This document shows, piece after piece, positions 411-13,977 of a DNA stretch of 13,977 nucleotides. The first letter of the stretch is position 1. Each line of letters begins with the position of its first letter. The notes beneath the pieces were generated by a model that worked only from the letters and a program-made list of their open reading frames with translations, was not told where the DNA came from and searched no databases. A program made the position numbers and the translations under genes. The DNA is from Atopobium sp. ICM42b (GTDB lineage: Bacteria > Actinomycetota > Coriobacteriia > Coriobacteriales > Atopobiaceae): contig JDFH01000018.1 of NCBI GenBank assembly GCA_000564995.1, positions 1-13,977 on the forward strand. The letters run 5' to 3'.

Positions 411-1289
411 TTAGTGGGTTGCGTCCTCGAAGAACTCCCATGCCTGAGCGTCGGTTGCGCCCTCGTGAACGATCATGCGGACAGCCTCAGCCATCTGCAG
501 AGGATGGGTGCTCTGGAAGATGTTGCGGCCCATGTCAACGCCGCGTGCACCCTTGCGGATAACGTCGTATGCAAGGTGCAGAGCGTCGCGCTCAGCAAGC
601 TTCTTGCCGCCAGCAACAACAATTGGAACTGGGCATGCTGCAACGACTTCCTCGAAGTCTTCGCAGTCGTAAGTCTTAACAATCTGGCAGCCCATCTCAG
701 CAATGATACGAGTTGCAAGCTTGAAGAAGCGACCGGTGCGCTCCATGTCCTTACCAACAGCACAAACGCCAAGGGTAGGAATGCTATAGCGGAAACCAGC
801 GTTAATGACCTGGCTCAGGTTGTCGATGCTGGAGAGCTGGCCATCAGCACCGATGAAGGTCTGAACAGCCATGCAGTCTGCGTTCATGCGGATAGCGTCC
901 TCGATGTCAACAGCAACAACCTCGTGCGAGAGGTCGGACTGCAGCATAGAAGAGCCGGAAGAGACGCGAAGAGCGATGCCCTTAGAAACCTCAGGAGAAA
1001 CGCAAGTCCTGATTGCGCCACGGGTGCCCATGAAGCAATCGACGTAAGGAGCAAGCTGTGGAAGCAGCAGGTCAAGACGCTCGAGACCAGCGGTTGAGCC
1101 CATGAAGTAACCGTGGTCAAATGCGAACATTACAGTGTTGCCGCTCTTTGGATCAAAGATGTTGGAGAGGTGCTTCTGCATACCCCAGTCGAGGTTGTTT
1201 GCACCCTTTACATAAAATCCCTGATTGTTAGCAAAAGGAGTGTCTACGTGATAATCCTTAGCTACTTTCAATCCGTCCAGATCTGCCAT
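411..1289 (-). CDS. lsrF: 3-hydroxy-5-phosphonooxypentane-2,4-dione thiolase LsrF
   Basis: LsrF is the cytoplasmic class I aldolase-fold thiolase that ends AI-2 breakdown, transferring an acetyl group from 3-hydroxy-2,4-pentanedione-5-phosphate to CoA. At 292 aa it matches the usual length (about 291). From memory it aligns with E. coli LsrF end to end: MADLD start, LDWGMQ (33-38), FAFDHGYF (55-62), IVAGGKK-type VVAGGKK (224-230) and GVDMGRNIFQS (250-260). The Schiff-base lysine is K205 in QIVKTYD (E. coli K203). The ATG is preceded by AAAGGA five bases upstream. It is last in the minus-strand operon, 167 nt behind lsrB, with a stable hairpin in the gap that may lower its expression relative to the transporter. 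Stop TAA at 411-413. Confidence 0.97.
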   Translation of the reverse strand: MADLDGLKVAKDYHVDTPFANNQGFYVKGANNLDWGMQKHLSNIFDPKSGNTVMFAFDHGYFMGSTAGLERLDLLLPQLAPYVDCFMGTRGAIRTCVSPEVSKGIALRVSSGSSMLQSDLSHEVVAVDIEDAIRMNADCMAVQTFIGADGQLSSIDNLSQVINAGFRYSIPTLGVCAVGKDMERTGRFFKLATRIIAEMGCQIVKTYDCEDFEEVVAACPVPIVVAGGKKLAERDALHLAYDVIRKGARGVDMGRNIFQSTHPLQMAEAVRMIVHEGATDAQAWEFFEDATH

Positions 1290-1319
1290 GAAAATCCTTT
1301 CAATAAAACCTTAAAGCGC

Positions 1320-1390
1320 GCAGAAGAGGAGTGGTTCTTTGGCGGCGCCCTCCTTAGGAGAACCGCCCTAGGAGGACCACCCTCCTCTGC
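1320..1390 (-). other. Structured intergenic segment between lsrB and lsrF
   Basis: Imperfect outer arms (1320-1335 and 1376-1390) enclose an interior with its own inverted repeats: CCTCC with GGAGG, GGCGG with CCGCC, and CTCCT with AGGAG. The minus-strand RNA should fold into a branched, GC-rich structure directly upstream of the lsrF leader. The region is noncoding and contains several Shine-Dalgarno-like and anti-Shine-Dalgarno-like blocks. The structure is visible in the sequence. A role in lsrF mRNA stability or translation is inference. Confidence 0.5.
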
Positions 1391-1408
1391 GGCTGAATTA
1401 CCTCATAA

Positions 1409-1438
1409 GCTGGCGAGAAGATCGGTCTTCTCGCCAGC
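1409..1438 (-). repeat. 13-bp perfect hairpin between lsrB and lsrF
   Basis: Exact 13-base arms GCTGGCGAGAAGA (1409-1421) and its complement (1426-1438) surround a four-base loop. It begins 18 nt past the lsrB stop on the minus strand. No T-run follows, so it looks more like an mRNA 3'-end stabiliser or partial attenuator than a full terminator, which agrees with lsrF belonging to the same operon. The arm sequence recurs downstream of the cupin gene (9528-9587). Confidence 0.75.
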
Positions 1439-1456
1439 CGTGAACTTACGCCTTGA

Positions 1457-2581
1457 TTAGAAGGAGTAGTTGTTCATGTTCTCCTTGGTGAAGACAAGGC
1501 GCTCAGGAAGCAGGACAACGCCGTTGTTCTTCTCGCCAGTCTTTGCGCCCTCAGCGATGGAGTCGTTAGGCTCAACCTTGACATCGCCAATGCTTGGGAT
1601 GGAGATGGTGTCGCCAACCTTGACCTCGTTACCAGCTGCAAGGAATGCTGCAACGTAGCAGCCCATAGCGCCCTGAACTGCGCAGTCCCAGAGACCCCAG
1701 TTGTAGATGGTGCCGTGCTCGCAGTAGGACTTGATGGACTGTGGAGAAGCAAAACCGGTGATGGTGATCTTCTTTTCGTCGTAGCCCTTGTTCTCTGCAG
1801 CCTGAAGCTGACCAGGAAGAGCGGTGGAGTCGTTGCAGATGATCAGGTCAATCTCTGGATAAGCGTCAAGGATTGCCTCACCAATGGTAATTGCCTGCTC
1901 TGCGTCCTGGTTGGAGTAGTAGTTCTCGTGGACGTTCTTCCACTTAGGATACTTCTCCTTGATGATCTTCTGTGCAGCTACCTGCCAGGAGTTCTGGTCG
2001 GTAACGGTTGCCTGGGAGTAGTGCCAGACGTAGGTGATCTCGTCCTTCTCTGGATCCTTGCCGCGCTCCTTGAGGCCAGCGACGCCCATGTCAACGAGCA
2101 TCTGGCCAAGGATCTCTGGGGTGCCCTGAGAAACCATGAGGGTACGATCCTCTGGGTTAGCGTCGGAGTCCCAAGTGGTAACTACGATACCAGCAGCGGT
2201 TGCCTTCTTCAGTGCGTCGGAAACGCCCTTTGCGTCAACGGTGGAGATGCTGATTGCGTCTACGCCGTTAGCAACTGCCTGGTTGATGACGGAAACCTGA
2301 GCGGAAACAGATGCGGTTGCGTCGCCGATGTAGTCAACGGTGAAGCCCCACTCCTTAGACTTGTCCTGTGCGCCCTTGTTTGCGGACTCGAAGAATGCGT
2401 TACCGGTGACCTTAGGAATAAATGCTACGGTCTTACCCTTGACGTCTCCGCCACCCTCGGACTTCTTGGTCTCTTCCTTCTTCTCGCCACCACCATTATT
2501 GCAGCCTGCCAGAGCGAGGCCAGCGCTAACTGCGGTAATACCAGCGGCACCAATAAAACCACGACGAGTAATCTCTTGCAT
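1457..2581 (-). CDS. lsrB: AI-2-binding lipoprotein LsrB (ABC substrate-binding protein)
   Basis: LsrB is the extracytoplasmic receptor that hands AI-2 to LsrACD. From ATG 2581 it is 374 aa. I chose this ATG over an upstream in-frame TTG (2623) because GGGAGG lies six bases before it and the signal peptide then starts correctly. Residues 1-27 are a lipoprotein signal with a twin-arginine motif TRRGFIG (5-11) and lipobox LAGC (C27), followed by a charged Gly/Lys/Glu linker to about 50. Salmonella LsrB ligand positions map to K57, D138 (TTWDSD), D195-Q196 (VTDQN) and P256. The A222 position is Q258, a contact known to be through the backbone. The C-terminus VVLLPERLVFTKEN is diagnostic of LsrB rather than RbsB. 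It lies 45 nt behind lsrD. Confidence 0.96.
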   Translation of the reverse strand: MQEITRRGFIGAAGITAVSAGLALAGCNNGGGEKKEETKKSEGGGDVKGKTVAFIPKVTGNAFFESANKGAQDKSKEWGFTVDYIGDATASVSAQVSVINQAVANGVDAISISTVDAKGVSDALKKATAAGIVVTTWDSDANPEDRTLMVSQGTPEILGQMLVDMGVAGLKERGKDPEKDEITYVWHYSQATVTDQNSWQVAAQKIIKEKYPKWKNVHENYYSNQDAEQAITIGEAILDAYPEIDLIICNDSTALPGQLQAAENKGYDEKKITITGFASPQSIKSYCEHGTIYNWGLWDCAVQGAMGCYVAAFLAAGNEVKVGDTISIPSIGDVKVEPNDSIAEGAKTGEKNNGVVLLPERLVFTKENMNNYSF

Positions 2582-2626
2582 AGGTAACCTCCCTTGTCTG
2601 TGCCTAAGGCACAATTTCCCCAAAGC

Positions 2627-3661
2627 TTATGCCTTGGCTTTACTGCTGCTTGAAAGCAGCGATTTCAAAAACGCACCAATATTTGTTCCGCTTGCTGCCG
2701 ATCGAGCAACGATGACAACAACCAGCAGGACACCAACAGGAATATCCAGGTACTGTGGGCTTACCTTGAAGCACAGTGGCAAGCCGAAGCGCAAGAATGC
2801 AATAACAAACGAAGCAAGTGCGGTACCAACAATGGAGCCCTTACCACCAGTAGAGAGCGTGCCACCCAAAACAACTGCGGTGATGATGTCCATGGTAAGG
2901 TCGGCGCCAAGGTCGGACTTAGCGGTACCCAGGTAAGCGGTCAGGACAACACCTGCAATAACAGCTGAAACTGCGGTGAGCATGTAGGTGGACATGATGA
3001 CTGCTCGGCTGTTAATGCCAGAGAACTCAGCTGCGCTCTGGTTAACGCCAACCAGGGTAATGCGGCGACCATACTTGGTCTTGTGCAGCAGAATGAACGC
3101 GATAACCAGCATCAAGATGTAGATCAGCAACTGGAATGGGATGACGCCAAAGAGCTGGAAGTTAGATACAAACTTGAAGTCCTCGGGGAAACCGCCAATT
3201 CCCTGGTAGCTCTCGGTCTTGGAGAGCGTGGAGATGAGCAGCGCCAGACCGGAGTACAGAAAGCTACCACCCAGGGTAACAACCATTGCTTGCACTCGAC
3301 AGTACGCAATCAAGAAGCCCGAAAGCGCGCCACAAGCAACAACCAGGACAAAGGCAACGCCTACAGCGCCCCAGATAGGAAGACCAAAGTCCTGCCAGCC
3401 AACGCCAATGGTGATGGACGTCAGACCAACCAGAGACGCAACCTGAATGTCGATGCCGCCGGTAACCATAACAAGCGTTACAAAGAGCGAGATCATAAAG
3501 ACTGGCAGGTTATCGTTAATGCTGGTAAACAGCAGTGCTGGACGCAAGAACTTACCGTTTGCAGCACCAAAAATCACAAACTCAAGCACAAGCAGACCGA
3601 TGAGGATCATGTTCCAGCTTGTCTGACCCTTGGACAAGAATCCCTTAAGTGTCTTCATCAT
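2627..3661 (-). CDS. lsrD: AI-2 ABC transporter permease LsrD
   Basis: One of two inner-membrane permeases of the AI-2 importer, 344 aa (E. coli LsrD about 330), of the BPD_transp_2 / RbsC-like family with about nine to ten hydrophobic segments. Family landmarks are VTGGIDIQVASLVGL (66-80) and the cytoplasmic coupling loop MDIITAVVLGGTLSTGGKGS (257-276). The start codon shares one base with the lsrC stop (TAATG), and only a weak purine stretch precedes it, which points to translational coupling to lsrC. A second ATG follows immediately. LsrC and LsrD pair asymmetrically, and this one is assigned as LsrD from its operon position and the IDIQVAS signature. Confidence 0.92.
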   Translation of the reverse strand: MMKTLKGFLSKGQTSWNMILIGLLVLEFVIFGAANGKFLRPALLFTSINDNLPVFMISLFVTLVMVTGGIDIQVASLVGLTSITIGVGWQDFGLPIWGAVGVAFVLVVACGALSGFLIAYCRVQAMVVTLGGSFLYSGLALLISTLSKTESYQGIGGFPEDFKFVSNFQLFGVIPFQLLIYILMLVIAFILLHKTKYGRRITLVGVNQSAAEFSGINSRAVIMSTYMLTAVSAVIAGVVLTAYLGTAKSDLGADLTMDIITAVVLGGTLSTGGKGSIVGTALASFVIAFLRFGLPLCFKVSPQYLDIPVGVLLVVVIVARSAASGTNIGAFLKSLLSSSSKAKA

Positions 3662-4737
3662 TAGCGAACACCGCCCTTCTTACCCAAAGGGCTCATAGCT
3701 GCCTCACCAAAGTCTGCAATCTGCTCTGCAAGAACCTCAGAAGTTGCCTTTGGAGAAACACGTGCGTTCAGACGGGCATGCCTGTTCTGAACAATGGAAC
3801 GGTGCTGAAGCAGGGCGTCCACAACAACAATGACAATCAGGATGACGCCGGTAATTGCGTTGTCGTAATTTGACGAGAAGCCCATGAAGACCAACAGGTA
3901 GCTGATGGATGCCATGATGACGGAACCGACAGCTGCACCAAGGACGGAGCCAACGCCACCAAGCAGGCTAACGCCACCAAGAACGCAGGCTGCAATAGCC
4001 TTCATCTCGTAACCATTGCCGCTCATTGGGGTAACAAAACCAATACGGCTGCAGAAGATGATGCCGCCGATAGCTGCCATAACGCCGCAGATGACGTATG
4101 CCAGAATCTTGGTCTGAAGAGCTGGAATACCAACCAGGGTTGCACCGTTAGCGTTATCGCCAACTGCTGCAAACCAGCGACCACGACGGGTCTGGATTAG
4201 TGCAAAGTGAATCAGAATAACCAGTGCGATAACTGCGCAATAGTAAACCGTGAAGTCGCCAATACCAGTTACTGCCGAGAAGTCCTTGAACTCCTTAGGA
4301 AGGTTCTCAACCCACTGACCATTGGTGTACACGTAAACAATACCGCGCAGAACACCGTTGGTGCCTAGGGTAAAGATGAGCGATGGAGCTTTCATAACGG
4401 CAACGCCCCAGGCGTTGACCAGGCCAATTGCTACACCAATAAGAATACCTACCAGGCAAGCAACAGGCAGTGGAGTTCCATCTCTCAGCATGCTGCCAAC
4501 TACCACAGCAACAAGACCCAAGTTAGAACCAACAGAAACGTCAATCTCACCAATAAACAGGGTGAAAGCCACACCAACAGCGACCAATGTGTAGACAACG
4601 GACGTGTTAAAGCAGGCAGCAATTGTTGCTGGTGTCAAGAATGCAGGATTCATTGCACCAACAATAATAAAGAGAGCAATCAGGAATGCGAGGCTGCTCA
4701 GTCCCCTAGCCTTGAGAAGGCGCTTTACAAGATCCAT
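3661..4737 (-). CDS. lsrC: AI-2 ABC transporter permease LsrC
   Basis: Partner permease of LsrD, 358 aa (E. coli about 342). Landmarks are IGEIDVSVGSNLGL (62-75) and the coupling loop EMKAIAACVLGGVSLLGGVG (244-263), as in the RbsC family. A hydrophilic C-terminal tail of about 45 residues (from 312) extends beyond the last membrane segment and is probably cytoplasmic. ATG 4737 is preceded by AGGAGG with six bases between, and the TAG stop of lsrA (4748-4750) lies inside that ribosome binding site, so the two genes are tightly packed. It sits second in the lsrACDB order known from enterobacteria. Confidence 0.93.
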   Translation of the reverse strand: MDLVKRLLKARGLSSLAFLIALFIIVGAMNPAFLTPATIAACFNTSVVYTLVAVGVAFTLFIGEIDVSVGSNLGLVAVVVGSMLRDGTPLPVACLVGILIGVAIGLVNAWGVAVMKAPSLIFTLGTNGVLRGIVYVYTNGQWVENLPKEFKDFSAVTGIGDFTVYYCAVIALVILIHFALIQTRRGRWFAAVGDNANGATLVGIPALQTKILAYVICGVMAAIGGIIFCSRIGFVTPMSGNGYEMKAIAACVLGGVSLLGGVGSVLGAAVGSVIMASISYLLVFMGFSSNYDNAITGVILIVIVVVDALLQHRSIVQNRHARLNARVSPKATSEVLAEQIADFGEAAMSPLGKKGGVR

Positions 4738-4747
4738 ACGTCACCTC

Positions 4748-6301
4748 CTACAATCCAAATGCAGCGGACATGAGGTTGTCCTGCGTAATTTCTTCTTTTT
4801 TGAACTCGTGATTAATGCGTCCCTGGTACATAGTGAACGCGCGGTCAGCAAGCTCAATAATCTCTTCCATATCAGAAGAAATCAGAAGAATAGAAACACC
4901 TTGCTTACGGAGCTCCTGCAAAACGGCGTACACATCGCCACGAGCAGCAGCGTCAATACCACGGGTTGGCTCGTCCAAAATAACAACCTTTGGAGCAACC
5001 GAGAATGCGCGGCCAATAACAATCTTCTGCTGGTTACCACCAGAGAGGCCGCCTACCTCCTGATCAAGGCCAGTAACCTTGGTACGGAAGTTATCAACGT
5101 AGTTCTGAGAAACCCTATCTTCTTCTTTGCGGTTAAGCAGCAGCTTACCCAGGGAAGAATTTGCAAGCAGAGAGCTTGTGGTGTTCTCGGCAACGTCACG
5201 AATTCTAAACAGACCGTCGTTAAAGCGATCCTCTGGGACATAGCTCAGACCTGCAGCAATAACGTCCTTGGTGGACTTGCCGGTAATGTCTTTGCCATCG
5301 ACAAATACCTTGCCGCCCAAAACCTTATCCATACCGTAAATGGTGGTAGCCATCTCTGATCTACCAGCACCAACGATACCCGCAAGACCAACAATCTCGC
5401 CTGGATAAATGTTGAGGTTTACGTCAGCAAAGCCATAGCCGGTGAACTCAGCAAGCTCAAAAATAGGCTCTGCGTCGTAATCAATGTTTGCGCTCTCGGC
5501 AATTTCTTTCTTAATCTCTGCTGCGTCTGGTGGAAGAAGTCCGCGCACAAGATCTTCTCGCGTAAAGTCCTCTACCTTGCCGCGCATAGCCATAACGCCG
5601 TCGCGCAGAATACCAATGCTGGTAGAAATCTCAAAGACCTCTGCCAGTCGGTGGGTAATGTAGATGATGCCAATGTTCTTCTGCTTGAGCTCCTGGACTA
5701 CCTTGAAGAGGCTCTGTACCTCGTCAAAGGTAAGTGCAGAAGTTGGCTCGTCCAGAATAAGAATCTCGGAATGACGCATAAGACCGCGGAGAATCTCAAC
5801 CATACCCTGCTCAGCAATGGAAAGCGTCATTGCCTTGCGGTCCAGATCAAGCTCCCAGCCAATCTCTTTCATAGTATCTTCGAGCATCTTGTTGAGCTCA
5901 GCTTTTGGAGCCTCAAAACCAATGGTGATGTTCTCTCTAACGGTCATGTTAGGGAACAGCATTGGCTCCTGAGGAACCATATAGATACTGTGTGCAAGTG
6001 CGGCCTTAGGATTGGAGATATCAACCTTTTGACGATCGATAGAAATTTCTCCCTCATCGGCAGAGTAAATACCCATGATGATCTTCATGAGGGTAGATTT
6101 ACCGGAACCGTTGCCACCAATAAGAGAGATGACCTCTCCTGGCGCCAAATCTAAGTTAATGCCTTTTAATACTTCGTTGGAACCAAATGACTTCTTGATT
6201 CCACGAACGGAAAGAAGTGTGTCGCACTGCTCACACGCATCTTTTCCTTCAGGCGACTTTGGGTCAGTGGCATCGATATCGATGTCAAAAGTTTCACCCA
6301 T
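4748..6301 (-). CDS. lsrA: AI-2 ABC transporter ATP-binding protein LsrA
   Basis: Duplicated ATPase that powers AI-2 import, 517 aa from ATG 6301 (E. coli 511). I prefer this start to an upstream in-frame start (6337) because AGGAGG lies four bases before it. The N-terminal ATPase has Walker A GGNGSGKST (62-70), a degenerate signature around LSIAEQG (160-166), Walker B LILDEPTSAL (181-190) and H-loop H217. The C-terminal ATPase has a Walker A without lysine, GIVGAGRSE (308-316), as is normal in the RbsA/LsrA family, plus signature LSGGNQQK (419-426) and Walker B VVILDEPTRGID (439-450). It has an extra acidic N-terminal stretch of about 27 residues. It is the first gene of the operon, transcribed from the divergent promoter region. 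Confidence 0.95.
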   Translation of the reverse strand: MGETFDIDIDATDPKSPEGKDACEQCDTLLSVRGIKKSFGSNEVLKGINLDLAPGEVISLIGGNGSGKSTLMKIIMGIYSADEGEISIDRQKVDISNPKAALAHSIYMVPQEPMLFPNMTVRENITIGFEAPKAELNKMLEDTMKEIGWELDLDRKAMTLSIAEQGMVEILRGLMRHSEILILDEPTSALTFDEVQSLFKVVQELKQKNIGIIYITHRLAEVFEISTSIGILRDGVMAMRGKVEDFTREDLVRGLLPPDAAEIKKEIAESANIDYDAEPIFELAEFTGYGFADVNLNIYPGEIVGLAGIVGAGRSEMATTIYGMDKVLGGKVFVDGKDITGKSTKDVIAAGLSYVPEDRFNDGLFRIRDVAENTTSSLLANSSLGKLLLNRKEEDRVSQNYVDNFRTKVTGLDQEVGGLSGGNQQKIVIGRAFSVAPKVVILDEPTRGIDAAARGDVYAVLQELRKQGVSILLISSDMEEIIELADRAFTMYQGRINHEFKKEEITQDNLMSAAFGL

Positions 6302-6387
6302 AGTACCTCCTACCAAAAATAACAAACGGCCGTACAAAATCTCACACTTTGAAGATATCTATAAATAGGCATTCTTCAAAGCACCGT

Positions 6388-6415
6388 CACGGCAAACGGT
6401 ATTATTACTGCCGTG
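6388..6415. promoter_or_regulatory. Candidate LsrR operator O1
   Basis: Exact inverted repeat CACGGCA (6388-6394) and TGCCGTG (6409-6415), with centres 21 bp apart, that is two helical turns. It would lie just downstream of the predicted lsrA transcription start. The spacing suits a multimeric SorC/DeoR-type repressor such as LsrR, encoded next door. The operator role is inferred from position and symmetry. Confidence 0.6.
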
Positions 6416-6428
6416 AATGGTATTTTTG

Positions 6429-6437
6429 ATTGTATCA
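6429..6437 (-). promoter_or_regulatory. Predicted lsrA promoter (extended -10)
   Basis: The minus strand reads TGATACAAT, an extended -10 element (TGn followed by a 5/6 match to TATAAT). No good -35 lies at 16-18 bp, which extended -10 promoters can tolerate. The start would fall near 6422, giving a leader of about 120 nt. The candidate operator at 6453-6479 covers its -35 region and the one at 6388-6415 covers its early transcribed region. Confidence 0.5.
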
Positions 6438-6452
6438 TGAACAATAGTCCGC

Positions 6453-6479
6453 AATACCGCTATACGCAATTATGGTATT
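6453..6479. promoter_or_regulatory. Candidate LsrR operator O2
   Basis: Exact inverted repeat AATACC (6453-6458) and GGTATT (6474-6479), with centres 21 bp apart, the same spacing as the neighbouring repeat at 6388-6415. Further GGTATT half-sites occur at 6398-6403 and 6419-6424. It overlaps the -35 zone of the predicted lsrA promoter and lies upstream of the lsrR promoter, so it could control both. Confidence 0.55.
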
Positions 6480-6493
6480 TGTAGTATATCTTC

Positions 6494-6522
6494 CTGTTAA
6501 TAGGGAGAATAATTACTATAAT
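6494..6522 (+). promoter_or_regulatory. Predicted lsrRK promoter
   Basis: A perfect -10 TATAAT (6517-6522) sits 17 bp from a weak -35 CTGTTA (6494-6499, 3/6). Transcription would start near 6529, about 55 nt before the lsrR ATG. The surroundings are AT-rich, as expected for a promoter. Confidence 0.55.
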
Positions 6523-6584
6523 GAAGTCTAGTATGTTAGATACAAATGTTTTATCATTAAACAAAAGTATCAACTGGAGGACGG

Positions 6585-7499
6585 ATGGACGAGCAGACAT
6601 ATGCACTAGCCACCAAGGCTGCATGGTATTACTACATGGAAGATAACACCCAGGCTCAGATTGCTGAGGTCATGGGCGTTTCTCGTGCAAAAGTTATTCG
6701 TCTGCTTGAAGAGGCTCGCGCGCAGGGCATTGTTCAGTTCAGCTTCAGAAAAAACGACAGCCAGCGCGTTTCCGCAGAACAACTCCTTATTGACCGCTTT
6801 GGCCTCAAGGATGCTTTTGTGATACCCACTCCCCTGGACAGCTCTGCTATTAACCAATCTATTGCTCAGGGCGCAGCTCACTACGTCTCCGATCACCTGC
6901 GCGAGGACGGCTACCTCAACATTGGCTACGGCGACACCGTCAGTCGCATGCTGGGATTTCTTGCCAAGAACCGCGAGGAGTCGCTCAACGTTGTAAGCCT
7001 TACGGGCGGCGTGAGCTACTACCTGCCATCCGTTGGCACCACTGCCTACTCCATGCACCTGTTCCTGACACCGTCTCCACTTGTTGTGTCTTCTCGCCAA
7101 GTGCGCGATGCACTTCTTGATGAGAAAAGCCTGCAAGACGTGTCCACTATGACGGAATATGCAGACATGAGTGTGGTTGGTATCGGCGCCGCAGTTGAGG
7201 GCGCCACCGTTTTGCGCAATGGCATCCTTAACGAGGGCGAGCTGACCGTACTTAAGATGCAAGGAGCCGTCGGTGACGTCCTCAATCACTTTATGGATAA
7301 AGACGGCAATCTTATTCAGACAGAAATTGAAGATCGTGTCATTAGTACCGATCTGGACAAGCTTCGCCAGCTCAAGAACGTTGTTGGCGTTGCTGGTGGC
7401 AAAGATAAAGTTACGGCAATTAAGGCAGTGCTTAACGGCGGCTATCTGAACGTGCTCATCACGGATTCAGACACCGCTGCTGAGCTGCTTCTTTCGTAA
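6585..7499 (+). CDS. lsrR: Transcriptional repressor LsrR, SorC/DeoR-like
   Basis: LsrR represses lsr transcription until phospho-AI-2 binds. It is 304 aa (E. coli 317). An N-terminal helix-turn-helix (about 22-45) includes TQAQIAEVMGVSRAKVIRLL. The C-terminal SorC sugar-phosphate-sensing domain has the family blocks GYGDTVSRM (114-122), SLTGGV (138-143), VVGIGA (197-202), GAVGD (227-231), GVAGGKDK (268-275) and LITDSDTAAELL (291-302). From memory the last block is almost the same as in E. coli LsrR. The start codon follows GGAGG with four bases between. It is divergent from lsrA and 14 nt ahead of lsrK. In E. coli the pair is ordered lsrK-lsrR, so the order is swapped here. Confidence 0.94.
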   Translation: MDEQTYALATKAAWYYYMEDNTQAQIAEVMGVSRAKVIRLLEEARAQGIVQFSFRKNDSQRVSAEQLLIDRFGLKDAFVIPTPLDSSAINQSIAQGAAHYVSDHLREDGYLNIGYGDTVSRMLGFLAKNREESLNVVSLTGGVSYYLPSVGTTAYSMHLFLTPSPLVVSSRQVRDALLDEKSLQDVSTMTEYADMSVVGIGAAVEGATVLRNGILNEGELTVLKMQGAVGDVLNHFMDKDGNLIQTEIEDRVISTDLDKLRQLKNVVGVAGGKDKVTAIKAVLNGGYLNVLITDSDTAAELLLS

Positions 7500-7513
7500 A
7501 CAAGGAGGATTTG

Positions 7514-9079
7514 ATGAGCAAGTATCTTCTTGCACTAGACGCGGGAACAGGAAGTATTCGCGCCGTTCTCTTTAGTGTTGACGGTGAGCAGGTTGGGGTT
7601 GCTCAGCGCGAGTGGGAGCACCATGAGGACCCTCGTTGGCCTGGCAGCATGGACTTTGATTGGGTTGCTGACTGGCAGCTTGCTCTGGACTGCATCAAAG
7701 AGGTTCTGGCAAAGACCTCCATTGATCCTAAAGAAATCGCTGGTATTTCCACTACCTGTATGCGTGAGGGTATCCTCCTGTATGACCAGGACGGCAATGA
7801 GATTTGGGCATGCGCTAACGTTGACGCTCGAAGTGTTGACGAGGTCAAACAGCTCATTGATATGGACCCAGAGCTTGAAAAGAAGATTTACCAGAAGAGT
7901 GGTCAGACCTATGCACTAGGCGCTCTACCTCGTCTTCTTTGGGTTAAGAACAAGATGCCAGAAATCTACAACAAGGCAGCCAAGATTGGCATGTTCAACG
8001 ACTGGCTTGCTTACAAGCTCACCGGTATTTTGGCGGTTGAGCCATCAAACGGCAGTACCACCGGCATTATGAGCCTGGAAGAACGCGCCTGGGATCCAGA
8101 GATTGCTAAGGAGTGCGGTCTTCGCGACGACCTGTTTGGCCAGGTCATCGAGTGCGGAGAAGTTCTTGGCACTGTAACTGCAGACGCCGCAGCAGAGACG
8201 GGCCTTGCCGAAGGTACACCTGTTGTTGTCGGCGGCGGCGATTGCCAGCTGGGTATGATTGGCGTTGGCGCTTGCGAGCCTGGCCAGGCTGGCGTTTTTG
8301 GTGGTAGCTTCTGGCAGTACGAGTTCAACACCGATAAGAGCACTCCAGACCCAGATTATCGCGTCCGTGTAAACTGCCACGCTATTCCACAGATTTGGCA
8401 GTACGAAGCTCTGGCATTCAAGCCTGGTCTGGTTATGCGTTGGTATCGTGACGGCTTCTGCCAGGCAGAAAAGGCCGAAGCAAAAGAGCGTGGCATTGAT
8501 GACGTGTATGAGGTCATGAACGAGCACGCTGCAGAGATTCCTGCTGGTAGCCACGGTATGCTTTGCTGCTTCAGTGACGTTATGAACTACATCCACTGGA
8601 TCCACGCAAGCCCAACGTTCACCAACTTTGAGCTTGATCCAGAGCGTTTCAATAAGTACACCTTCTATCGCGCAATTTTGGAGAACACCGCCCTTCTCGT
8701 CCGCGGCCATATTGACCTGGTCAAAGAAGCTACGGGCAATGAGCCAAGCGAGCTCATCTTTGCAGGTGGTGCTTCCAAGTGTTCTCTGTGGGCACAGATT
8801 GTTGCCGACGTTACTGGCAAGAACGTCCGCATCCCAGAGGTCAAAGAGGCAACTGCTCTGGGCGCCGCTGTCCTTGCAGGCTACGGTGTAGGCATCTACC
8901 CAAGTATCGCTGAGGGCGCAAAGCGCGTTGTTAAATGGGATAAGACATTCTCCCCCAACCCAGACAACAAAGCTGTTTACGATCAGCTCTATGTCCAGTG
9001 GAAGGATGTTTACAAGAGTCAACTTGAGCTTGCAGAAGAGAACAAGGTCAAGAGCATGTGGAGAGCACCTGGTCTGTAA
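7514..9079 (+). CDS. lsrK: Autoinducer-2 kinase LsrK
   Basis: LsrK phosphorylates imported AI-2 (DPD) with ATP, trapping it and creating the LsrR inducer. It is 521 aa, FGGY carbohydrate kinase family (E. coli 530). The start is ATG 7514, five bases after AGGAGG (7503-7508). An in-frame TTG at 7511 is less likely. The N-terminal phosphate/substrate block is LALDAGTGSIRAV (6-18). SMREG-type CMREGILLY (82-90) and WACANVDARS (98-107) are LsrK-specific. The catalytic aspartate is D243 in VVGGGDCQLG (238-247). The ATP site is FAGGASKCSLW (416-426), with EVKEATALGAAVLAG (442-456) after it, and the protein ends in WRAPGL, like E. coli. It is co-transcribed with lsrR. Confidence 0.96.
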   Translation: MSKYLLALDAGTGSIRAVLFSVDGEQVGVAQREWEHHEDPRWPGSMDFDWVADWQLALDCIKEVLAKTSIDPKEIAGISTTCMREGILLYDQDGNEIWACANVDARSVDEVKQLIDMDPELEKKIYQKSGQTYALGALPRLLWVKNKMPEIYNKAAKIGMFNDWLAYKLTGILAVEPSNGSTTGIMSLEERAWDPEIAKECGLRDDLFGQVIECGEVLGTVTADAAAETGLAEGTPVVVGGGDCQLGMIGVGACEPGQAGVFGGSFWQYEFNTDKSTPDPDYRVRVNCHAIPQIWQYEALAFKPGLVMRWYRDGFCQAEKAEAKERGIDDVYEVMNEHAAEIPAGSHGMLCCFSDVMNYIHWIHASPTFTNFELDPERFNKYTFYRAILENTALLVRGHIDLVKEATGNEPSELIFAGGASKCSLWAQIVADVTGKNVRIPEVKEATALGAAVLAGYGVGIYPSIAEGAKRVVKWDKTFSPNPDNKAVYDQLYVQWKDVYKSQLELAEENKVKSMWRAPGL

Positions 9080-9167
9080 ACGCCGGGCTCCGCTGCGCCA
9101 CGGATACGCATAGCGCACAAGAAAAACGTTTGGTCGCATCAAAAGTTGCGCCTGAAAGGAAAGCAAG

Positions 9168-9518
9168 ATGTTTATTGTCAACGAGAACGATTTTGAGTAC
9201 AGGTGCGGAGATCACGGCCCTAAGTACCTGATGAAGGGTCCTCGCATGAACTACGCCATGGTCCAGTTCCAGCCAGGCCAGGATTTCCAGGCCCACTACC
9301 ACAACATCATGGAGGAGAACTTCCACATCCTCCAGGGCAAGGTTGACATTGTGGTTGACGGCGAGGTTCACACCCTCTCAGCTGGCGACTTCATCCACAT
9401 TGAGCCCGGCGAGGTTCACTACGTCAACAACCCTTATGACGAGCCAATTGTCATGGTCTCAACCCTTGCTCCTTTCCAGGAGGTCGACAAGGTTGAGGTA
9501 GAAAACCCTACCTACTAA
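9168..9518 (+). CDS. Small single-domain cupin, candidate phospho-AI-2 isomerase
   Basis: A 116-aa protein that is essentially one cupin domain. Motif 1 is complete: G37, H43, H45, E50 and G57 in GQDFQAHYHNIMEENFHILQ followed by G. Motif 2 has G73, PG (80-81), H84 and N88. H43, H45, E50 and H84 would bind one metal ion. There is no signal peptide, so it acts in the cytoplasm. ATG 9168 follows a GAAAGGAA purine stretch, 88 nt past lsrK, with no terminator between, so it is probably in the lsrRK transcript. Because lsrG is absent from the window, this cupin may catalyse the isomerisation of phospho-AI-2 that LsrG (an ABM-fold protein) does in E. coli. The family call is firm and the reaction is hypothesis. 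Confidence 0.85.
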   Translation: MFIVNENDFEYRCGDHGPKYLMKGPRMNYAMVQFQPGQDFQAHYHNIMEENFHILQGKVDIVVDGEVHTLSAGDFIHIEPGEVHYVNNPYDEPIVMVSTLAPFQEVDKVEVENPTY

Positions 9519-10779: not shown

Positions 10780-10840
10780 CACAAAAAATGCCGTCGGAAA
10801 CCCAACGGCATTTTCAGTTCATATAGGAAAGAAAGAAACA
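10780..10840. repeat. 61-bp repeat, left copy (dps downstream region)
   Basis: It matches 13917-13977 at 59 of 61 positions. It contains the terminator hairpin of dps and 26 bases of flanking sequence. The match runs to the end of the window and may continue beyond it. Confidence 0.95.
10783..10814 (-). terminator. Terminator downstream of dps
   Basis: 13-base arms (10785-10797 and 10802-10814, one mismatch) with a four-base loop. On the minus strand six T's follow (10783-10788). The other side also has TTTT, so it may work in both directions. It lies 70 nt past the dps stop. Confidence 0.82.
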
Positions 10841-10884: not shown

Positions 10885-11316
10885 TTACTTGTTGGACTGC
10901 TTGATCATCCAAATAGTCTTGGAGAGAAGAGCGATGTGCTCGTCCATTGCTGCGGAAACAAGGAAATTGTCCTCAGCGTCTGCATCCTTCTTGATCTCTG
11001 CTGCGAATGCACGGATTGCCTCGTAGTCAGCAAGAATAGCCTGGTAAATCTCCTGTGGATTCTTGAAACCCTCTGCTGCCTCGGAAAGAGTTGCGTTCTT
11101 GAGGAAGGAATCCATGGATCCAAGTGGAGAACCGTCGTTCATCAGAATGAGCTCAGCAACCTCGTCAAGCTGGTCATACATTGCGCCGTAAACCTCGTCG
11201 AGGTCAGTGTGGACGTTGTAGAAAGAAGGACCGCTAACATACCAATGGAAGTTGTGAATCTTGTGAGCCTCAACAGCATAGTTAGCGAGAAGAACGTTGA
11301 GCTTATCGTTTAGCAT
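10885..11316 (-). CDS. dps: Dps-family ferritin-like DNA-protection protein
   Basis: Dps dodecamers oxidise and store iron using peroxide, protecting DNA under oxidative or starvation stress. From ATG 11316 the protein is 143 aa. The in-frame GTG at 11325 overlaps the ribosome binding site and is rejected. The complete inter-subunit ferroxidase centre is present, with the E. coli Dps spacing: H24 (NFHWYV), H36, D40, D51 and E55. The N-terminus is short and not lysine-rich, so direct DNA binding through a Dps-type tail is unlikely, as in many Gram-positive Dps-like (Dpr/DpsA) proteins. It is a single-gene unit with two palindromes upstream (11345-11367 and 11382-11407) and a terminator on each side. 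The name dps follows the family, and dpr would be equally apt. Confidence 0.93.
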   Translation of the reverse strand: MLNDKLNVLLANYAVEAHKIHNFHWYVSGPSFYNVHTDLDEVYGAMYDQLDEVAELILMNDGSPLGSMDSFLKNATLSEAAEGFKNPQEIYQAILADYEAIRAFAAEIKKDADAEDNFLVSAAMDEHIALLSKTIWMIKQSNK

Positions 11317-11344
11317 GGTTAACACCTTTCTATCTGGTTCCTAT

Positions 11345-13533: not shown

Positions 13534-13632
13534 AATTCCTCCTATGTTTGATGTGTCTTTTGCCTGTTAAACGCCTTTTTGAACAAGAACACTTACTACA
13601 GTGCAGATAGTAGTCATTGAAATGCGGTCATG

Positions 13633-13650
13633 TGTCCACCACGTTGGACA
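13633..13650. promoter_or_regulatory. Palindrome TGTCCA-N6-TGGACA, copy 2
   Basis: The same arms and the same six-base spacer length as the palindrome at 10584-10601, but with a different spacer (CCACGT). It lies 44 bp left of the first 29-bp element and about 100 bp upstream of the lipoprotein start, so either a regulatory site or an element end is possible. Confidence 0.45.
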
Positions 13651-13693
13651 GTTGACCTAGTCGTGGAACGCCTTGTAGATTTTTCAGAGTCGA

Positions 13694-13722
13694 TTGATCC
13701 AAAACCCGGGTAATTATGTGTC
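13694..13722 (+). repeat. 29-bp element, copy 1 (plus)
   Basis: Pattern TTGATCCAAAA-N6-TAATTATGTGYC. Spacer CCCGGG, final bases TC. It starts 32 bp before the next copy. Confidence 0.9.
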
Positions 13723-13725
13723 CGC

Positions 13726-13754
13726 TTGATCCAAAAGTGGGGTAATTATGTGCC
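13726..13754 (+). repeat. 29-bp element, copy 2 (plus)
   Basis: TTGATCCAAAA, spacer GTGGGG, TAATTATGTGCC. Separated by only GAAA from the inverted copy 3, so the pair forms a long hairpin. Confidence 0.92.
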
Positions 13755-13758
13755 GAAA

Positions 13759-13787
13759 GGCACATAATTACGTGGGCTTTGGATCAA
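13759..13787 (-). repeat. 29-bp element, copy 3 (minus)
   Basis: On the minus strand it reads TTGATCCAAAG, spacer CCCACG, TAATTATGTGCC. Its inner 12 bases pair perfectly with copy 2. Confidence 0.92.
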
Positions 13788-13800
13788 AATCGGGTTTCTC

Positions 13801-13829
13801 GACACATAATTAGTTCACTTTTGGATTAA
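13801..13829 (-). repeat. 29-bp element, copy 4 (minus)
   Basis: On the minus strand it reads TTAATCCAAAA, spacer GTGAAC, TAATTATGTGTC. One change in the first block. Confidence 0.88.
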
Positions 13830-13862
13830 TCGAGCTCCAAAAATCTGCATTCACCAGTGCGA

Positions 13863-13891
13863 CGCACATAATTGCTGCGGTTTTGGATCAG
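13863..13891 (-). repeat. 29-bp element, copy 5 (minus)
   Basis: On the minus strand it reads CTGATCCAAAA, spacer CCGCAG, CAATTATGTGCG. The most diverged copy, but with the same 11-6-12 layout. Confidence 0.85.
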
Positions 13892-13916
13892 TCTTTTCAA
13901 CGACGCCATAGACAAC

Positions 13917-13977
13917 CACAAAAAATGCCGTCGGAAATCCGACGGCATTTTCAGTTCATATAGGAAAGAAAGAAACA
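13917..13977. repeat. 61-bp repeat, right copy, cut by window end
   Basis: 59 of 61 bases match 10780-10840. Its hairpin (13922-13934 with 13939-13951) is a perfect 13-bp stem with loop AAAT, where the left copy has one mismatch. This side therefore keeps full pairing and should work as a terminator for a minus-strand gene beyond the window. Confidence 0.95.

Follow-up and report, generated by a model that had tools for sequence, protein, structure and literature searches.

A stretch of about 215 bp at 13674..13888 of the window (the whole stretch of DNA analysed, 13,977 nucleotides from Atopobium sp. ICM42b) is probably a non-autonomous, MITE-like transposable element in an Atopobium/Lancefieldella relative. 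Two of the features by which MITEs are recognised are present: the unit is short and has no transposase gene, and it occurs at different loci with an empty site in a relative (two loci, one empty site). While the second locus and the empty site are observed, we infer that its five 29-bp repeats are putative binding sites for a transposase, a multi-site DDE enzyme. An earlier note on this DNA had proposed, among other readings, a MITE or gene-less insertion element, and the second locus, the empty site and the lack of convincing scattered sites all support that proposal.

Layout of the sites and extent of the unit

The window holds five matches to the 29-mer at up to three mismatches, against none in 200 shuffles, and all five keep an 11-6-12 layout without indels. 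Two lie on the plus strand, L1 (13694-13722, core CCCGGG) and L2 (13726-13754, core GTGGGG), and these alone match the pattern exactly. They are followed by a four-base junction between left-type and right-type sites, GAAA (13755..13758), and then by three copies on the minus strand: R3 (13759-13787, one mismatch, core CCCACG), R2 (13801-13829, one mismatch, core GTGAAC) and R1 (13863-13891, three mismatches, core CCGCAG), the last of which departs from the pattern at both ends. All sites point towards the interior of the unit, spaced by 32 bases on the left and by 42 and 62 on the right. The earlier note's count of five copies, two plus and three minus, all with this layout, was therefore borne out, but its assertion that every copy carries the full pattern holds only for the plus pair. 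Likewise, the sites do sit in its interval of 13694..13891, although the unit is larger, with homology to a second copy running from 13674/13675 to about 13888.

The left terminal module (13674..13693, plus strand) begins TGTAGATTTTT and, judged by eye, is common to four loci with differing outer sequence. An inverted-repeat search recovered its inverted copy (TGCAGATTTTT...) at 13830..13849 on the minus strand, which is a possible true right terminus. Together these belong to an inverted repeat with 49-base arms (13674-13722 and 13801-13849, 73%), while homology to the second copy, in Atopobium sp. BS2, continues to 13888. The inverted module stops at 13849, 13 bp short of R1, and the spacer and R1 beyond it are common to BS2 (30 of 38 aligned bases). 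The termini read TGTAGA...TCTGCA in the window, with a right end of ...TCTACA in BS2, and they do not mirror each other once R1 is counted in. Either a third, outer site belongs to the right end, making the termini unequal, or R1 was acquired in an older nested event. It is conceivable, if rather unlikely, that an undescribed multi-site transposase mobilises the unit with asymmetric ends and with R1 beyond the apparent inverted-repeat terminus; in that case this non-autonomous element would have a binding site that lies beyond the cut site, or two right ends that can serve in turn. The earlier note had suggested looking for target duplications at the flanks, and none of at least 4 bp was found in the window or in BS2 under two right termini and offsets of up to 3, a result to be read in the light of an unsure right terminus and of the fact that old or deletion-associated insertions can be without a duplication.

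The unit is gene-less, the sole ORF of at least 20 aa entirely within 13674..13888 being 21 aa long; eight such ORFs overlap 13640-13930, of which the longest is 49 aa. It is intergenic and lies 141 bp upstream of where a DUF5067 gene starts. The promoter-like match seen at 13652-13681 is no better than expected by chance. The window also contains a complete-looking autoinducer-2 (lsr-type) cluster (411-9518), with matches to LsrF-type thiolase, LsrB, LsrD, LsrC, LsrA, LsrR and AI-2 kinase models and a small protein without a match; of these models, the thiolase and the kinase alone score above curated cut-offs. The same terminator-like stretch and flank are seen twice, at about 10780-10840 and at 13918-13977. 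In the window this stretch adjoins a gene of ferritin-like type (10885-11325), and similar sequence also follows the stretch in BS2 and in a second genome, G024; going by this arrangement, a second ferritin-like gene may lie beyond the end of the window.

RUP and BOX are named palindromic repeats, and the unit could in principle be a repeat of that kind, kept for an RNA or DNA hairpin. Its predicted fold is very strong on either strand (z -8.25 and -7.34, with none of 200 shuffles as low). However, the facing cores of L1 and R2 (CCCGGG and GTGAAC) are unpaired and are instead largely kept by position, and the window gave no Rfam match at the gathering threshold; we consider this explanation very improbable. 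The strong folding follows from the inversion of the sites, and as the facing cores do not pair we read it as a by-product. Low-copy MITEs with long-stem folding are described in the accessible part of one report (PMC11578231).

A second locus, an empty site and solitary left ends

When window positions 13560-13977 were compared by blastn with 140 genomes of the family, two genomes matched. The first, BS2, is the nearest genome compared, with 36% of sampled words in common with the window. Positions 57-195 of its contig 37 (NZ_JDFG01000037.1) correspond to window positions 13675-13813, and positions 19778-19864 of its contig 31 to 13800-13888. An insertion sequence terminates each of the two contigs: the BS2 genome contains five matches to the contig 31 end, with which the contig 37 end has a 20-base inverted terminus in common (90%). 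As CATAATTAG, likely the target duplication of this insertion sequence, stands at both junctions, the two contigs appear to represent one unit split by a single insertion, which lies within site R2. The multi-copy insertion sequence (L004:1-61 on contig 37, L013:1366-1582 on contig 31) is presumably IS256-like; a 36-residue fragment of it matched no Pfam family.

With its halves set end to end, the BS2 unit is identical to the window at 185 of 207 aligned bases (~89%) in nine segments, a count that leaves out seven bases between sites. The alignment extends from 13674/13675 to 13888 and not convincingly further. By site, identity is 28/29 for L1, 26/29 for L2, 27/29 for R3, 29/29 for R2 and 23/26 for R1, and the six core bases are kept at 5, 5, 5, 6 and 4 positions, respectively. 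The cores are thus variable between sites, as the earlier note had it, but largely kept position by position between the two copies. The junction was read as GAAA at both loci, although one comparison of the two copies gave a change at one of its four bases.

The BS2 unit occupies a different locus from that of the window, its outer sequence having no blastn match there. The window unit lies beside the DUF5067 gene and the repeated terminator-like stretch; the BS2 unit lies beside other genes, which we take to be an XRE-type membrane protein gene and, at the opposite flank, a LytTR-like pair. An apparent homology of the flanks (24/28 on the left, 7/11 on the right) came from a gap-rich global alignment and was dismissed, given the blastn bounds of 13675-13888.

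The common internal junction, present at two loci, suggests that it was the short form that moved. This bears on the possibility, also raised in the earlier note, that the array represents the two ends of an element that had lost its transposase genes. The layout indeed fits two insertion-sequence ends brought together, and left ends without the rest exist in both BS2 (C20) and G024, as would suit a full insertion sequence reduced to a relic by the loss of its genes in place and immobile in its short form. With the GAAA form at a different locus in BS2, though, the simplest account is that the deletion came before the spread, and we regard an immobile relic as improbable.

The second matching genome, G024, is of the same genus and consists of a single contig of 1,543,805 bases. 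It has matches to the window to the left (13564-13661) and to the right (13916-13977) of the unit, and in G024 these are 27 bases apart, which constitutes the empty site. For the BS2 copy G024 offers no clean empty site: the flanks lie about 8 kb apart in the same order and orientation, and three further genes stand between them. In locus L152 (G024 C1:1404800-1413800), the counterparts of the genes that flank the BS2 unit are separated by about 7 kb, in which there are three long ORFs. There may have been a deletion adjacent to the insertion in BS2, which the unit could mark. A deletion beside an insertion has been reported for ISPve1, an IS21 element, in the portion of the source available (PMC3281130).

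Degenerate left ends without the rest of the unit were found at BS2 C20:28503-28564 (by blastn) and at G024 C1:396926-396948 (E 0.0051 with a 29-mer model built without that site). Both were then put into a 49-base end model, so that their E values there, 2.2e-11 and 1.8e-11, follow by construction. The left terminus (T/C)GTAGAT is common to all four loci and the sequence outside it differs, as judged by eye. The C20 left end seems to be absent from its G024 counterpart, according to a gappy alignment. At that locus (L015:1500-1880) the left end is followed by about 300 bp without a clear G024 counterpart, within which, by eye, a further inverted repeat seems to lie; this is possibly a second, different short element.

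Distribution of the site and the search for a parent

An exact search of 84,980 species genomes, a collection that may omit records very close to the window, returned one stretch, in Atopobium sp. BS2. At up to three mismatches the motif was found in 1 of 140 family genomes, at three places in BS2, all within the unit. The 29-mer model matched 21 of the 140 at E up to 10, but below 0.01 only six BS2 sites, which are in the model, and the one G024 site remained; in BS2, 53 of 868 first-look candidates were scored. Across the order, the end model matched 58 of 395 genomes at E up to 1, with only BS2, G024 and G151 below 1e-3. The matches in G151 (8.5e-4), G189 (0.0145) and G173 (0.0423), three genomes of one genus in another family, fall within a conserved long ORF and were taken as chance. 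A shorter pattern matched 12 of 396 genomes in a phylum sample, compared with 3 for a reversed control pattern; outside BS2 these were one or two sites per genome at two or three mismatches, none clustered as in the window, and those in G427, G562 and G753, of one genus, lie within a conserved ORF. No other convincing copies were seen in the 140 family, 395 order and 396 phylum genomes. Searches of viral contigs with three exact patterns and of phages gave no match, and plasmids gave none save a weak 27-base one (Vibrio, E 0.8).

Single weak matches are thus a little above control and unclustered, a sequence pattern that argues against genome-wide regulator sites. The earlier note had suggested searching relatives for the 29-mer, and what these yielded was the five-site unit in BS2, not convincing scattered single sites. 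Its suggestion of a regulatory or partition-type array, in the form of sites bound by a regulator, nucleoid or partition protein of the host, would suit the bipartite conserved blocks with their variable core and an intergenic place upstream of the DUF5067 gene. Nevertheless, the scarcity of scattered sites in BS2 and its relatives disfavours such an array, as does the unit's being missing at the matching G024 site and beside other genes in BS2, and we think it highly unlikely.

A gene-less, relocating unit whose repeated bipartite sites are inverted between two ends is the expected remnant of a transposon that had multi-site ends. We propose that the unit consists of transposon ends only, with two 29-bp sites at the left end and three at the right, separated by the four-base junction and each facing the same way relative to its own end. 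A transposase supplied in trans would bind each bipartite 29-mer through its two conserved blocks, with the core free, and would then pair the two ends and move the unit.

No autonomous element with these ends, and hence no intact insertion sequence carrying two and three copies as the earlier note had envisaged, was found in the 140 family or 395 order genomes, using end models under stricter filters and with part of the candidates scored. The unit contains no istA or istB gene. In five genomes of the genus the best matches to PF01695 had E values of 9.2e-16 (G025), 4.3e-5, 5.2e-5, 8.4e-4 and 8.9e-4, for a model that also matches 13 of 14 controls. Among the loci listed, 30 IstB loci of the family (L016-L045) held no 29-mer site at up to seven mismatches, in scans of about 1.5 kb each side of istB that mostly do not include the left end; a site at eight mismatches in L025 was taken as chance.

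Within the host's bacterial family, five genomes supplied eight pairs of IS21 copies whose ends were also compared. Three pairs in G056 represent a single element, G117 and G121 (L122/L123) have another in common, and with G045 there are three kinds; the pairs L124/L125 and L126/L127 showed no clear ends. In all three kinds the ends begin with TGT, no more than two bases from the match, and contain sub-repeats, as seen by eye. The best terminal likeness, of TGTTGATTTTCAATAG to TGTAGATTTTTCAGAG, was the best of six ends scored (G056, left) and is not significant, being reached by 6% of shuffles. As these relatives in the host's family have ends of like style, IS21 is the likeliest type of parent, a leading guess that falls somewhat short of an even chance and is not a finding. 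The IS21 suggestion in the earlier note accordingly stays plausible for its multi-repeat inverted ends, without gaining an intact element with these ends or a target duplication.

Tn7, Tn5053 and Mu ends have multiple transposase sites that are unevenly spaced, tight on one side and wide on the other, and Mu-transpos_C (PF09299) is a domain typical of their transposases. The unit could accordingly be a non-autonomous derivative of this group and not of IS21, with several TnsB/TniA-type sites per end and TGT...ACA termini. The TGTAGA...TCTGCA termini of the window, the ...TCTACA end in BS2 and the three unevenly spaced right sites would all fit. Mu-transpos_C nonetheless had matches in just 1 of the 140 family genomes, the five of the genus having none, and no duplication of at least 4 bp was seen, which leaves such a parent unlikely.

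Significance and comparison with known elements

If a parent is found, the unit would be a ready minimal 2+3-site substrate for asking how many sites the transposase needs. For genome annotation, a MITE-like element explains an otherwise puzzling intergenic repeat. Its importance is modest while the parent transposase is missing. We found no literature on miniature inverted repeats in Atopobium; for Coriobacteri the retrieved records held nothing but a lung-cancer match, going by its title, and those on MITEs together with IS21 held, in the portions available, no MITE derived from an IS21-type element.

IS21 elements (istA/istB) are described, in the accessible parts of two sources, as having ends that start TGT with at least two direct sub-repeats, inverted between the ends (PMC10122671, PMC11208146). 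The unit is alike in these respects, with direct repeats at both ends, two left and three right, inverted between them. One of these sources, in the part available, also reports that IstA needs two repeats per end and that the IS21 repeats named R1 and R2 are bound by different subunits (PMC10122671). Unlike IS21, the unit has no istA/istB, carries three sites on one side and shows no target duplication; in sequence its sites are unlike the IS21 ends that were compared, and their spacing is irregular, less even than in those ends.

The unit also resembles the bacterial MITEs MITEPye1 and MITEPsy1/2 as presented in the available text of two reports (PMC11578231, PMC3189936). Like the unit, these are short, intergenic and low in copy number, have no transposase gene, and combine long-stem folding with occurrence at different loci; they also have inverted-repeat ends, which the unit may share. 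Parents of the IS1182 and IS5 kinds have been suggested there for the MITEPye1/MITEPsy MITEs, though not for MITEPsy2, whereas none was matched for the unit. In contrast to their simple inverted repeats, the unit has five 29-bp sites, and this 2+3 layout is unusual within what is probably a known kind of element.
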